A stretch of DNA of 64,000 nucleotides, from positions 124,001 through 188,000 of the forward strand of contig NZ_AULI01000007.1 in NCBI RefSeq assembly GCF_000425205.1. The letters are read 5' to 3'. Source of the stretch: Pontibacillus halophilus JSM 076056 = DSM 19796 (GTDB lineage: Bacteria > Bacillota > Bacilli > Bacillales > BH030062). Below are positions 8,524 to 44,117 of this stretch, in pieces; the stretch's first letter is position 1, and each line of letters opens with the position of its first letter. The translations under genes and the position numbers were made by a program. Under the pieces are notes generated by a model. That model had not been told where the DNA came from and did no database searches. It saw only the letters and a list, made by a program, of their open reading frames with translations.

Positions 8524-10371
8524 TTATTCTTCTATGTGTACATCATATGTTCTAAGCCAATAATCAATTTGCCCAATATGCGCCAACAGCTGCGGCCCTT
8601 TCATAAGCTGACCAAACCACGGTGATTCGATGGCGTTCCCTTCACTCTCTACTAACTTTCGCACTTCTTCTCGGTCAAATAACTGGAATAACGGTGCTTT
8701 ATTATCTGCTAGAATTTCGTTCAGCCATTGAACGACTCCGCTCGTATAGGCTGGATGATGAGTTTTCGGGTATGGACTTTTCTTTCGATAGAGCACATCA
8801 TGAGGCAACAGCCCCTCTAGAGCCTTTCGTAAGATTCCTTTCTCTCGGTCGCCGTATCGCTTCATCTCCCACGGTATATTCCACACATATTCAACAAGAC
8901 GATGATCACTAAATGGCACACGAACCTCAAGACTCGCCCCCATGCTCATCCTGTCTTTCCGGTCTAATAACGTCGTCATAAACCAAAGCTGGTTTAAATA
9001 GAAGAGTTCACGTCGCTGCTTCTCTTCTTGTGTATCACCTTCAAAGGCGGGCGTTTCTTGCACAGTTTCCCGGTACCTCTGCATCATATAATCTTGTAAA
9101 TCCAATTTCTCCTGCCATTGTGAGGATAGTAGACGATGGCGAACATCAGAGGAACGAATCCACGGGAATCCATCCCGTTCTAAATCTTCCTTCCGGTAGA
9201 ACCAAGGATACCCACCGAAGATCTCATCCGCACACTCTCCAGACAATCCCACCGTCACATGGTCTTTAATTTCACGGCAGAACCATAACAAAGAGGAATC
9301 GATGTCAGCCATACCAGGTAGATCCCGCATGCGGACAGCCTCTTTCAATAAACGACTGAGTGTACCATTATCCATCACACATGTATGATGGTCCGTACCA
9401 TGCTCATCAACCATCAACTTTATAAATTCTCCATCGCTGTTCGGTTGAAAGGTAGAAGACTTAAAGTATTTCTGATTGTCTTCGTAATCAATCGAAAATG
9501 TTTGTAACTGCCCTCTTCCCTGTTCAGCATAATAATTGGCTGCAATGGCGGTAATTGCGCTCGAATCTACACCTCCTGACAGAAAGGTTCCAACGGGGAC
9601 GTCAGATACGAGCTGTCGTTCAACCGCATCTTGAAACAATTCTCGAATATGAGCCGCTGTCTGCTCAACCGTGTGGGGATGCTCATGGCTGACTACATTC
9701 CAATAACGAGTCACTTTCAATCCGTTCCGGTTAAAGCGTGCAACATGCCCTGGCCTGAGCTCCTTCACTCCCTTAAAGACGCCATGACCTGGAGTTCTAG
9801 AAGGCCCTAGTGCGAGCACTTCGCTAAGTCCCTCTCGGTCAAGTACTGCCTCTACATTTGGATGAGCGAGTAACGCTTTCAGTTCAGAAGCAAAGAGAAA
9901 TCCTCCGCTATTCTCTGTGTAGAAGAGCGGCTTCACCCCAAGTCGATCTCTAGCGAGAAATAACGTTTCCTGCTCACTATCCCAGACTCCAAAAGCAAAG
10001 ATTCCATTAAAGCGATCGACACAAGCATCCCGCCATTCAATGTAACTCTTCAACAGCACTTCCGTGTCTGAGTGCGAATCAAACGTCCAGCCACGCTGCA
10101 TCAATTCCTTGCGAATATCCTCCGTGTTGTACAACTCTCCGTTGTAGCAGAGGGTATACGTATGTCCGCCACGCTTGAACGTCATAGGCTGACGTCCTCC
10201 CGCTGGGTCTACAACGATGAGTCGCTTATGCCCAAAAGCAACGTGCGTTTGAACCCATGCATTGGATTCATCGGGTCCTCGGAAATTCAACGTGCGCGCC
10301 ATCGATTTAATCGTAGCTGCTTCCTTCGTTAGATCTTTCTTATAGTCCACCCATCCCGTTATTCCGCACAT
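8524..10371 (-). CDS. asnO: Asparagine synthetase (glutamine-hydrolysing), AsnO type
   Basis: A 615-residue class II enzyme that transfers the amide of glutamine to aspartate with ATP. The start at 10371 makes Cys2 (MCGITGW) the N-terminal nucleophile of the glutaminase domain (residues 2 to about 190, with CYNGELYN). The synthetase domain has the PP-loop SGGVDSS at 265-271. Length and neighbours (yisL, then gerP and addAB nearby) match B. subtilis asnO (yisO), a sporulation-linked isozyme. The frame extends 47 codons further up but that part lies over a Fur box and promoter on the other strand. The promoter for asnO itself is not clear. Confidence 0.9.
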   Translation of the reverse strand: MCGITGWVDYKKDLTKEAATIKSMARTLNFRGPDESNAWVQTHVAFGHKRLIVVDPAGGRQPMTFKRGGHTYTLCYNGELYNTEDIRKELMQRGWTFDSHSDTEVLLKSYIEWRDACVDRFNGIFAFGVWDSEQETLFLARDRLGVKPLFYTENSGGFLFASELKALLAHPNVEAVLDREGLSEVLALGPSRTPGHGVFKGVKELRPGHVARFNRNGLKVTRYWNVVSHEHPHTVEQTAAHIRELFQDAVERQLVSDVPVGTFLSGGVDSSAITAIAANYYAEQGRGQLQTFSIDYEDNQKYFKSSTFQPNSDGEFIKLMVDEHGTDHHTCVMDNGTLSRLLKEAVRMRDLPGMADIDSSLLWFCREIKDHVTVGLSGECADEIFGGYPWFYRKEDLERDGFPWIRSSDVRHRLLSSQWQEKLDLQDYMMQRYRETVQETPAFEGDTQEEKQRRELFYLNQLWFMTTLLDRKDRMSMGASLEVRVPFSDHRLVEYVWNIPWEMKRYGDREKGILRKALEGLLPHDVLYRKKSPYPKTHHPAYTSGVVQWLNEILADNKAPLFQLFDREEVRKLVESEGNAIESPWFGQLMKGPQLLAHIGQIDYWLRTYDVHIEE

Positions 10372-10456
10372 TCCTTCCACATCCTCTCGGTTGTTTCCAT
10401 TAAGCACTTCATTCTCTATGATATGCCTAGAAAATCCAAGATGTGCAAACTTTTCA

Positions 10457-10485
10457 TTGACAATGATAATCATTCTCATTATTAT
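10457..10485 (+). promoter_or_regulatory. Plus-strand SigA promoter with Fur box in the spacer
   Basis: TTGACA (10457-10462), a 17-bp spacer and TATTAT (10480-10485) make a near-consensus promoter reading away from asnO. A Fur box at 10459-10477 (GACAATGATAATCATTCTC) matches the classical 19-bp sequence at 17 positions. Fur with iron would block this promoter directly. Confidence 0.8.
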
Positions 10486-10492
10486 AAAGGTT

Positions 10493-10583
10493 GTGAGTAT
10501 GTTGGTTGCCATCCCCCCTCATACACGATGGTAACGATATAAATAAAACCCTTGTGTCTTAAAGACACAAGGGTTATTTGTTA
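10493..10583 (+). ncRNA. Candidate Fur-regulated small RNA (FsrA-like)
   Basis: About 90 nt lie between the Fur-controlled promoter and a rho-independent terminator, with no open frame. A first hairpin pairs GTTGCCATC (10505-10513) with GATGGTAAC (10527-10535) and exposes a loop rich in C (CCCCCTCATACAC). The terminator stem follows at 10547-10575. B. subtilis FsrA, an iron-sparing small RNA under Fur, has this size and uses C-rich single strands to pair with ribosome sites. The homology is inferred from architecture; the sequence was not aligned. Confidence 0.65.
10547..10575. terminator. Bidirectional terminator between the small RNA and yisL
   Basis: AACCCTTGTGTC and GACACAAGGGTT form a 12-bp stem around TTAAA. 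The minus side reads TTTTATTT (for yisL) and the plus side ATTTGTT (for the small RNA). Confidence 0.85.
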
Positions 10584-10961
10584 ACCTAGATAGATCCCAT
10601 ATCCTAAGCGACCAAAGCCTAATACAATGGTAATGATAAATGCAATAAAGAACTGCACCCATAACGCCGTTCCCGCTTTCTTTCGTTTATGGGAGCGTGT
10701 TGTCAGGACTTCGACAATCCCAATTACCCAGATACCAGCAATGGCCTTCACAATTGATTCTCCAATCTCTGCGCCATTAGCATATTGGAAGTATGCTCCT
10801 AGTAAGCTACCACCACTGTACAAGATAAGAAGATAGTCTAATCGCATAATCATTTGTACAATCTTACCTGCCTTCTCTCTCCCAAGGCGATTAAAGAAGA
10901 TTGCCAACCCAAACAAAGCAAGCAACAAAATCCAAGATGTAATGTGTAAATGTGTTGTCAT
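10581..10961 (-). CDS. yisL: YisL family membrane protein (DUF1516)
   Basis: A 126-residue protein with four predicted membrane segments that matches the YisL/UPF0344 family (MTTHLHITSWILLLALFGLA at the start and GFGRLGYGIYLG at the end). The start at 10961 follows AAGGAGGACATATAACG, which excludes the longer frame from 11024. Function is unknown in the family. Its place next to asnO is the same as in B. subtilis. Confidence 0.8.
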   Translation of the reverse strand: MTTHLHITSWILLLALFGLAIFFNRLGREKAGKIVQMIMRLDYLLILYSGGSLLGAYFQYANGAEIGESIVKAIAGIWVIGIVEVLTTRSHKRKKAGTALWVQFFIAFIITIVLGFGRLGYGIYLG

Positions 10962-11079
10962 CGTTATATGTCCTCCTTTATGTATATACATACCAAATTT
11001 TATCTTACCAGAATTCTCATCCACAAGCGAATGCTACAACCAATTCTCGTTCCAGAAGACAAAAAATTCAAAATACTGT

Positions 11080-13047: not shown

Positions 13048-13135
13048 CATCTTTCGGTAACTGGCAAGCTTAGACAACGAATGTCCTTAGCCCCTATAGT
13101 TTTGCGTCCCACATTTTCACATGGTTTGCCTTTAT
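13048..13135 (-). ncRNA. Cyclic di-GMP-I (GEMM) riboswitch aptamer
   Basis: The minus strand contains the conserved GEMM elements in order: GGCAAACC (13130-13123), GTGGGACGCAAA, GGGGCTAAGG with its hairpin partner, and GTTACCGA (13061-13054), the tetraloop-receptor side. Together they match the class I c-di-GMP aptamer such as Vc2. The orientation points to lower coordinates, into a stretch with no protein gene, while the upstream neighbour on the same strand is a DUF418 gene. What it controls is therefore unclear. Confidence 0.85.
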
Positions 13136-13259
13136 CGAGATTCAAGGATGAAGTCCGTTGAATCTGATGTACTATCATCATACAATAGAGGAATATTTTT
13201 CACATCCGACAGATTAATCATTTTCACGCATATGCCAAAAGTTCTACAAAATTCGAGTA

Positions 13260-43087: not shown

Positions 43088-43588
43088 ATGAATGTTTATA
43101 TGACGAAAGGGACTACCGATTACTTGAGTAAGCTTCAAGCGAACGCTTCTGAATCCATTTGGCTCATGCAGAATGAAGACGGAGCACTTGCCTACTACGA
43201 AGGGGACAACAACCCATTCCAGGAGCCACTTACATACGAAGTGGTCGACCATGTGAATGAGCTCAAACAAGAAGGGTACGTTGTGTTAAACAACATCCCA
43301 GTCACAGATGAAGGTCGTCCAATCTTTGAAGACCGGTTTAAGAATCGTGCTGGCGCCATTGAAGACACACCTGGCTTCCAGGCAATCCGAATTCTTCGTC
43401 CAACTGGTGGGGACCAAACGTATGTCGTCTTTACTCAATGGAAAGATGAGTTGAGCTTTCTTGATTGGAAAGAATCCCAGGCCTTCCAGAAGGCACATCG
43501 CAACAACGGACCACAAAGCAAGGAAAAGCCTTCTTACATTGCAGGTCCTTCCTACCTTACAAAGTATCATATGAGTTCAACACAATAA
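43088..43588 (+). CDS. hmoB: Haem-degrading monooxygenase HmoB
   Basis: A 166-residue ABM-fold protein with the N-terminal extension found in HmoB (YhgC). The C-terminal domain (NRAGAIEDTPGFQAIRILRP, then YVVFTQWKDELSFLDWKESQAF) matches the haem-binding dimeric fold. It cleaves haem to release iron. The start follows AGAAAGGAGTCG. It diverges from pbpF and ends in a perfect terminator. Two direct repeats lie upstream. Confidence 0.88.
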   Translation: MNVYMTKGTTDYLSKLQANASESIWLMQNEDGALAYYEGDNNPFQEPLTYEVVDHVNELKQEGYVVLNNIPVTDEGRPIFEDRFKNRAGAIEDTPGFQAIRILRPTGGDQTYVVFTQWKDELSFLDWKESQAFQKAHRNNGPQSKEKPSYIAGPSYLTKYHMSSTQ

Positions 43589-43637: not shown

Positions 43638-44117
43638 CTATTTTGTTTCATCCAATACATACTCGTTAAAGAATGCCTCGAAATTCTCCTCTGGCTGAGA
43701 CCCAACAATACGCTTTACTTCTTCCCCATCTTCATAATGAACAAGTGTTGGCGTACTTTCAATCCCATACTCACCCCACGCATTTTCAAATTCAAGCAAG
43801 TTTAGCTTCTTCATATCCACACCCATATCTTCTGCTAAAGGTGCAAGGATTGGTGTTGTGTTCTGGCAGTGGATGCATGTTGGGCTATAGAAGTATACAG
43901 TCAAGTCTTCCCCATTGTTAATCTTTTCATTTAATTCACGCGGCAAGATTTGATTGTCGTAATTCTCATCATCTAATTGATCGACCGTTTCTGGGTGAAG
44001 GTTATCTTTCTCATAAGGATTTCCTTCAGACGCCTGACGATTCTGTAGTTGAACGACTGTAATTAATGTCCCTAGAAGAAGGACAATAACGGCTCCAATG
44101 ATAATCATTTTCTTCAT
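43638..44117 (-). CDS. Membrane-anchored thioredoxin-like protein (BdbA/D-type)
   Basis: A 159-residue protein with an N-terminal membrane anchor (residues 4-23) and a thioredoxin domain outside the cell. The active site is CIHC (YSPTCIHCQNTTP) and the cis-Pro loop is STPTLV. It starts one base after the bdbC stop, so the two are coupled. It would oxidise or isomerise disulfides and be re-oxidised by BdbC. Whether it counts as BdbA or BdbD cannot be settled here. Confidence 0.82.
   Translation of the reverse strand: MKKMIIIGAVIVLLLGTLITVVQLQNRQASEGNPYEKDNLHPETVDQLDDENYDNQILPRELNEKINNGEDLTVYFYSPTCIHCQNTTPILAPLAEDMGVDMKKLNLLEFENAWGEYGIESTPTLVHYEDGEEVKRIVGSQPEENFEAFFNEYVLDETK

Follow-up and report, generated by a model that had tools for sequence, protein, structure and literature searches.

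In the 64-kb stretch of DNA analysed here (the window), the gap between two minus-strand genes holds a plus-strand promoter followed by a predicted small RNA of about 90 nt (10492-10583, +), a placement that rests on the promoter, the fold and the conserved arrangement. Upstream of the RNA and divergent from it lies an asparagine synthase gene (8524-10374, −; TIGR01536), which we take to be asnO from its position. We place its true start (MCGITGW) at ~10374, and the 662-aa open reading frame at 8524-10512 overlaps the small RNA only through an over-long start. The convergent neighbour downstream is yisL (10581-10997, −), assigned by a family match to DUF1516; its protein found no match in the wider contig database. 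A motif CACATCTT...GGCATATCAT at 10418-10447 (−), separate from the Fur box described below, is the probable asnO promoter, and a similar motif, as judged by eye, precedes asnO in relatives too. It resembles sigma-E sites.

The plus-strand promoter is of the sigma-A type (TTGACA-17-TATTAT, 10457-10485), agrees with 11 of the 12 consensus bases and shares its 17-bp spacing with five relatives. It is the best of six promoter-like sites between 9500 and 11500, a number that is not unusual (shuffle mean 3.7, s.d. 2.3). Its spacer contains a putative Fur box (10459-10478, +) in two forms. At 10459-10477, GACAATGATAATCATTCTC matches 17 of the 19 positions of GATAATGATAATCATTATC, the consensus used for scoring, and is the top site of the window, the runner-up scoring 15; among 40 first-order Markov sequences of equal length, the best score was 16 once and 13-15 otherwise. 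In the 7-1-7 form, TGATAATCATTCTCA at 10464-10478 matches 13 of 14 positions, against a best of 12 in the Markov sequences. An overlapping second register at 10465 scores 15/19, and there is otherwise one Fur site at the locus. A first-pass annotation of this DNA had described a promoter with a 17/19 Fur box inside its spacer, and both are confirmed. A further Fur-like site (15/19, at 44094), which was set aside, sits at the start of a thioredoxin-like open reading frame.

The predicted transcript has a minimum free energy of −34.6 kcal/mol (z = −5.75), and none of 200 shuffles was as low. It is predicted to form a hairpin (10498-10541, +) with a C-run in its loop (10514-10526, CCCCCTCATACAC; mean unpaired probability of the run 0.83), followed by a predicted terminator hairpin of 13 pairs (10547-10575, both strands), so that the succession of C-loop hairpin and terminator claimed in the first-pass annotation is borne out by the fold and the stem. 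The terminator hairpin is probably common to the small RNA and to minus-strand yisL, and its plus-strand tail (ATTTGTT) is a weak T-tract. The region has three terminator-like sites, where shuffles gave 1.5. The window has six C6 runs, so they are not rare, and one of the six falls in the transcript. The transcript had also been described as about 90 nt without a frame; the length holds, but an 11-codon frame (MLVAIPPHTRW, ATG 10499 to TAA 10534) fits inside.

Recurrence within the family and beyond

The comparison set consisted of nine family genomes (G000-G008), which include the window genome (G000), placed in a separate genus of the family, Pontibacillus litoralis (G002), P. marinus (G003) and P. 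yanchengensis (G007). Six of the nine (G000, G002, G003, G005, G007 and G008) carry a like arrangement in the asnO-yisL gap: TTGAMA and TATNAT separated by exactly 17 bp, the spacer being Fur-like, then 6-10 consecutive C and a terminator. At the Fur box, the window and G002 match 17 of 19 positions, G007 and G008 match 15, and G003 and G005 match 14; the scores of these last four lie in the range that the top site of a 64-kb random sequence attains. Alignment of the six RNAs is poor except at the promoter and the C-run, the rest of the RNA being poorly conserved, and for this reason we built no covariance model and make no claim of covariation. A search for DNA similarity to the whole element within the family matched only the element itself, its own palindromic terminator and three promoter-only stretches at other loci of G002 and G007, which we rejected as RNA homologues.

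The first-pass annotation had stated that its proposal would fail if close relatives had lost the C-rich loop. What the relatives keep is the C-run, with a predicted mean unpaired probability of 0.83-1.00 across all nine family RNAs; the loop itself is not kept, the run being predicted single-stranded and outside any hairpin loop in the five relatives with the asnO-yisL arrangement.

In the other three genomes (G001, G004 and G006), repeats or other sequence occupy the asnO-yisL gap, where Fur matches reach at most 11/19 and C5 runs are absent. These genomes carry a second type of Fur-box/C-run RNA gene on the contig that has yisL, at a distance of 34-36 kb from it. It consists of a TTGACG-17-TATACT promoter, then a Fur box that matches 17/19 (or, scored as 7-1-7, 14/14), a hairpin CCGTTA-CCCCCC-TAACGG and a terminator, and it adjoins a BacA/UppP-type gene, whose family was checked for G001 only. 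With both loci counted, a Fur-box/C-run RNA gene is present in 9/9 family genomes. In two genomes where the RNA is absent from the asnO-yisL gap (L016 and L017), long CTTGAG-containing repeat arrays take up the gap.

Two sequence patterns were scanned across the order, both derived from the sequences themselves, so that more diverged relatives are missed. The strict pattern of promoter and C5 run matched 6 of 397 genomes, exactly the six with the asnO-yisL arrangement, at one place per genome (by overlapping matches in two), and its reversed form matched none of the 397. A looser CCCC pattern matched 11 of 199 genomes, and its reversed form again none. These 11 are five of the family's seven sampled genomes, three genomes of one genus, which we take to be Bacillus, at fsrA (two confirmed by the FsrA model RF02273, the third by sequence and neighbours), and, at a different locus, three genomes from a third family. 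A first relaxed pattern was rejected as too loose: it found two of the six, two chance-looking places (L025 and L026) and 12 reversed matches.

A scan of the wider contig database, to which the reversed controls above do not apply, yielded 11 stretches, three from Pontibacillus, three from Shouchella and one each from Metabacillus mangrovi, Bacillus sp. FJAT-47783 (the same stretch as G081), Bacillus sp. SA1-12, Bacillus sp. SJS and a Pseudogracilibacillus MAG. All have the promoter, the C-run and a terminator-like hairpin, the last seen by eye in L058 and L066, where the computed fold ended short of it. The neighbours of the RNA differ between the groups of stretches, save for M. mangrovi (L058 near 4811, −) and Bacillus sp. 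SJS (L066 near 5940, +), in both of which the RNA adjoins a Mn-catalase gene. As this gene is 77% identical to one that adjoins fsrA in L035, the RNA locus of this group may be the fsrA locus. It is suggestive that a manganese enzyme should neighbour an iron-sparing RNA.

Among the loci from the order and database scans are short predicted RNAs behind Fur-type promoters. Those of Shouchella (L061 at 2488, −; L062 at 7655, −; L063 at 6716, +) contain UCCCCCUUAUCCC and a terminator. Another family has an RNA with two C-runs, CCCC(C)GCTCCCC (L039 and L040 at ~1567, L041 at ~1569, L057 at ~2752, all −; L040 and L057 are one stretch), with a metallo-hydrolase-like gene beside it in L039, L041 and L057 and a glutaredoxin-like gene between the two in L039 and L057. 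The C-run RNA of SA1-12 (L065 near 2917, −) lies near a flavodoxin-like fragment, as judged by eye, and that of the Pseudogracilibacillus MAG (L067 near 195, −) adjoins a PF03992 monooxygenase gene, whose product resembles HmoA.

Predicted pairing with sdhC and aconitase

The first-pass annotation had proposed that the C-rich run pairs with ribosome sites, and complementarity to the sites of sdhC and aconitase is indeed predicted in all nine family genomes. The sdhC site reads GAGGGGGGTAA and has the Shine-Dalgarno (SD) sequence GAGGGGGGUAA, both in 9/9. In the window RNA, an anti-SD element CCCCCCUCA (10513-10521, +) complements UGAGGGGGG of sdhC over 9 bp, and the adjacent anti-start element GUUGGUUGCCAU (10501-10512, +) complements AUGGCAACCAAU of sdhC with 11 Watson-Crick pairs and one G-U pair; on the sdhC mRNA the two helices lie 12 nt apart. 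The pattern GGGGGGTAAN{2,10}ATG occurs at a single place in the window genome, which is sdhC, and sdhC is among its places in all nine genomes. Family-wide, GGGGGGTAA..ATG had 17 occurrences and its reversed form 16 (1 and 2, respectively, in the window genome). The G-run-ATG motif shows no enrichment as such, and what carries weight is solely that it recurs at sdhC; three of its other occurrences are the reverse complement of second-type RNA genes. In G005, a cytochrome-oxidase subunit I gene (PF00115, L119) has GGGGGGTAA before its ATG and is a possible further heme-enzyme target in that genome.

Target prediction had been suggested as a check on this pairing. The window RNA segment pairs with its own sdhC at a predicted −38.1 kcal/mol, an energy that ignores accessibility, and none of 3,473 other ATG-centred regions was as good; these regions, drawn from the window (10380-10640 omitted) and eight loci of the same genome, are mostly non-gene ATGs and include the aconitase locus, which was chosen by the analyst. 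When C6 was kept and its flanks were shuffled, 1 of 2000 sequences was as strong against sdhC as the window RNA. For the 5′ part against sdhC +1 to +24, the shuffles as low numbered 1/1000 for the window, 6/1000 for G005, 8/1000 for G007 and 11/1000 for G008, and in five of the nine genomes (G001, G002, G003, G004 and G006) the anti-start element is not significant against shuffles. By the energy of the start part alone, 3 of the 3,473 regions equal sdhC, and none equals it in its Watson-Crick run. With G-U pairs counted, 16 of 2,546 window ATGs reach a helix of at least 12, as sdhC does, and one of these, with a helix of 21, is presumably the small RNA locus itself. When 56 window genes that have a plausible ribosome site served as background, sdhC ranked first or second for all nine RNAs. 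The idea that each RNA fits its own sdhC best was rejected, as own pairs were not generally stronger than cross-species pairs.

The aconitase SD region contains AGGGGGUA in all nine genomes, the site reading AGGGGGTAAA in eight and AGGGGGTATA in the window genome. This pairing is less specific: aconitase is the 9th best of the 3,473 regions for the window RNA, and 1 to 9 of the 56 background window genes pair as well or better. At eight leuC/aconitase-like loci, no G-run site was present among up to four starts shown for each. With GAGGGGG preceding ATG at 103 places, against 61 for the reversed pattern, the genome has many G-rich ribosome sites, so targets beyond sdhC and aconitase are likely.

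Relation to known iron-sparing RNAs and the proposed role

The likeness to FsrA that the first-pass annotation had seen holds for the layout and fails in the model search and the location. RF02273, whose gathering cut-off is 80 bits and which scored a B. subtilis control above it, has no match in the window, none on 10300-10700 at E up to 10 and none in the eight relative loci at E up to 5. In the window genome it matched 12 places at E up to 10, and the best of them (24.5 bits) is a terminator elsewhere. Of the matches in this genome and the order, L001, L037 and L038 were rejected as terminators that lack the Fur-promoter/C-run arrangement. By Rfam score and by locus, the window RNA is not FsrA. 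Among 120 genomes of the order, RF02273 matches four at E up to 0.001 and passes the cut-off in two, both of one genus, which would leave most of the order without a known iron-sparing RNA.

Judged by sequence, the window promoter is like those of fsrA in L035, L036 and L046, which have the form TTGACA-17-TATCAT with a Fur box in the spacer (17-18/19), and the transcripts are of similar size (~84-90 nt). In L046, fsrA lies between genes that we take to be of the ykuI and ykuJ types, and in L035 likewise, with the Mn-catalase gene between fsrA and ykuJ. The window RNA, in contrast, lies between asnO and yisL, has one long C-run where FsrA has two CCCC, and, in the window species, carries a 5′ arm that complements the sdhC start region. 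FsrA acts together with the chaperones FbpA, FbpB and FbpC. According to excerpts of PMC12871923, a single-stranded pairing region lies between two helices in FsrA, and homologues are present in Bacilli, Staphylococci and Listeria; a C-rich unpaired stretch between a 5′ helix and the terminator is predicted for the window RNA as well. Aconitase (citB) and sdhCAB are among the FsrA targets listed in an excerpt of PMC11257911, which in the window RNA correspond to predicted complementarity to the aconitase and sdhC sites.

The window RNA also resembles IsrR of Staphylococcus, a Fur-controlled RNA described in excerpts of PMC9410917 and PMC11257911, whose C-rich single strands pair with the ribosome sites of iron enzymes and two of whose C-rich regions lie in hairpin loops. 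IsrR, however, has three C-rich regions and two Fur boxes, against one C6 run and one Fur site here, and was searched as a 174-nt sequence in that work. The second-type locus of the three relatives is nearer to the IsrR layout, in that the Fur box lies immediately downstream of the promoter and a hairpin loop holds the CCCCCC. IsrR, FsrA and others share targets and yet are not orthologues, as stated in the excerpt of PMC9410917. A Fur box over the promoter of a short terminator-ended transcript is also the class found by SIPHT, whose predicted small RNAs, Bacillus sp. candidates included, have Fur boxes overlapping their promoters (PMC2527527, in excerpt). The literature searched, with most subscription papers outside its coverage, gave no description of a small RNA locus between asnO and yisL, and the site, which the first-pass annotation had called new, is distinct from the fsrA neighbourhood. 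What is new here is the site; the RNA is probably a functional member of the known Fur-repressed, iron-sparing kind.

Other explanations of the locus were weighed. The Fur box might serve divergent asnO or yisL, with the plus-strand transcript a by-product, and its distance of ~85-100 bp from the asnO start would suit this. In all six genomes, however, the Fur-like spacer belongs to a promoter pointing away from asnO; a separate asnO promoter-like motif is present in relatives, including G004 and G006, whose gap has a Fur score of at most 11/19; and yisL is convergent with the small RNA. We therefore consider this very unlikely. It is more improbable still that the transcript is an mRNA for the tiny peptide MLVAIPPHTRW or a dual-function RNA: the frame is open but has no clear Shine-Dalgarno sequence, and the RNAs of the five relatives at asnO-yisL, read by eye, retain the C-run and have no counterpart of the frame. 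A chance meeting of an AT-rich promoter, a palindrome and a C-run would be helped by the frequency of C6 runs and the middling Fur boxes of four relatives, but is scarcely credible given the recurrence at asnO-yisL in six genomes despite otherwise diverged sequence and the absence of reversed-control matches in both genome scans.

A different question is posed by origin, as the RNA could be a true FsrA orthologue that was relocated and diverged past recognition, and not a separately born analogue; its working would be the same. The shared promoter geometry, C-rich single strand, terminator and predicted targets, the 5′ helix that some members have, the GCTAC that both the G002 RNA and FsrA carry close to the 5′ end, and the Mn-catalase neighbour of the M. 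mangrovi and SJS RNAs speak for such descent. The lack of any RF02273 match at the permissive thresholds given above, the differing neighbours and the occurrence of two unlike loci within one family speak against it, and we regard it as the less favoured account, unlikely though far from negligible.

Considering (i) the arrangement in six of the nine family genomes, (ii) the analogous gene in the other three, and (iii) the complementarity of the C-run, the reading of the first-pass annotation as an iron-sparing small RNA is supported at the sequence level. Sequence features, conservation and complementarity together make it highly probable that the window locus encodes a Fur-repressed, trans-acting RNA of ~90 nt that lowers the translation of sdhC and aconitase in iron starvation; this is tempered slightly by the lower Fur scores in four relatives, by the number of reversed-pattern matches and by the Mn-catalase gene that neighbours both fsrA and two of the C-run RNAs. 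In the presence of iron, Fur would bind the spacer box and block the promoter. In iron starvation, Fur would be released and the RNA would be transcribed, and its exposed C-run would nucleate on the G-rich SD sequences of sdhC (GAGGGGGGUAA) and aconitase (GAGGGGGUA). In the window species, the hairpin would then open and its 5′ arm would pair with the sdhC start codon and the next codons. With ribosome binding blocked, less succinate dehydrogenase and aconitase, both iron-rich enzymes, would be made.

A broader reading, to which we give slightly less than even weight, is that Bacillus-like bacteria have unlisted Fur-controlled C-run RNAs at various loci, swapped within a family and constrained by the G-rich site of sdhC (and aconitase). 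It is weakened by the fsrA neighbour that one group shares, by the weaker Fur boxes of the four relatives and by the number of reversed-pattern matches. If true, the conserved element would be the target site rather than the RNA gene, such RNAs would have been born or moved repeatedly, and the RNA of the window species would have gained a second segment that fits its own sdhC start codon. Judging from the locus and its counterparts, the function may often exist unrecognised and at changing positions. This touches on the question of how small RNAs of equal function originate or relocate, and it offers target pairings that can be tested.

Elsewhere in the window, the sole Rfam hit at the gathering threshold is a c-di-GMP-I riboswitch at 13053-13140 (−, 79.2 bits), and the protein encoded at 43088-43588 (+) resembles the heme monooxygenase HmoB.
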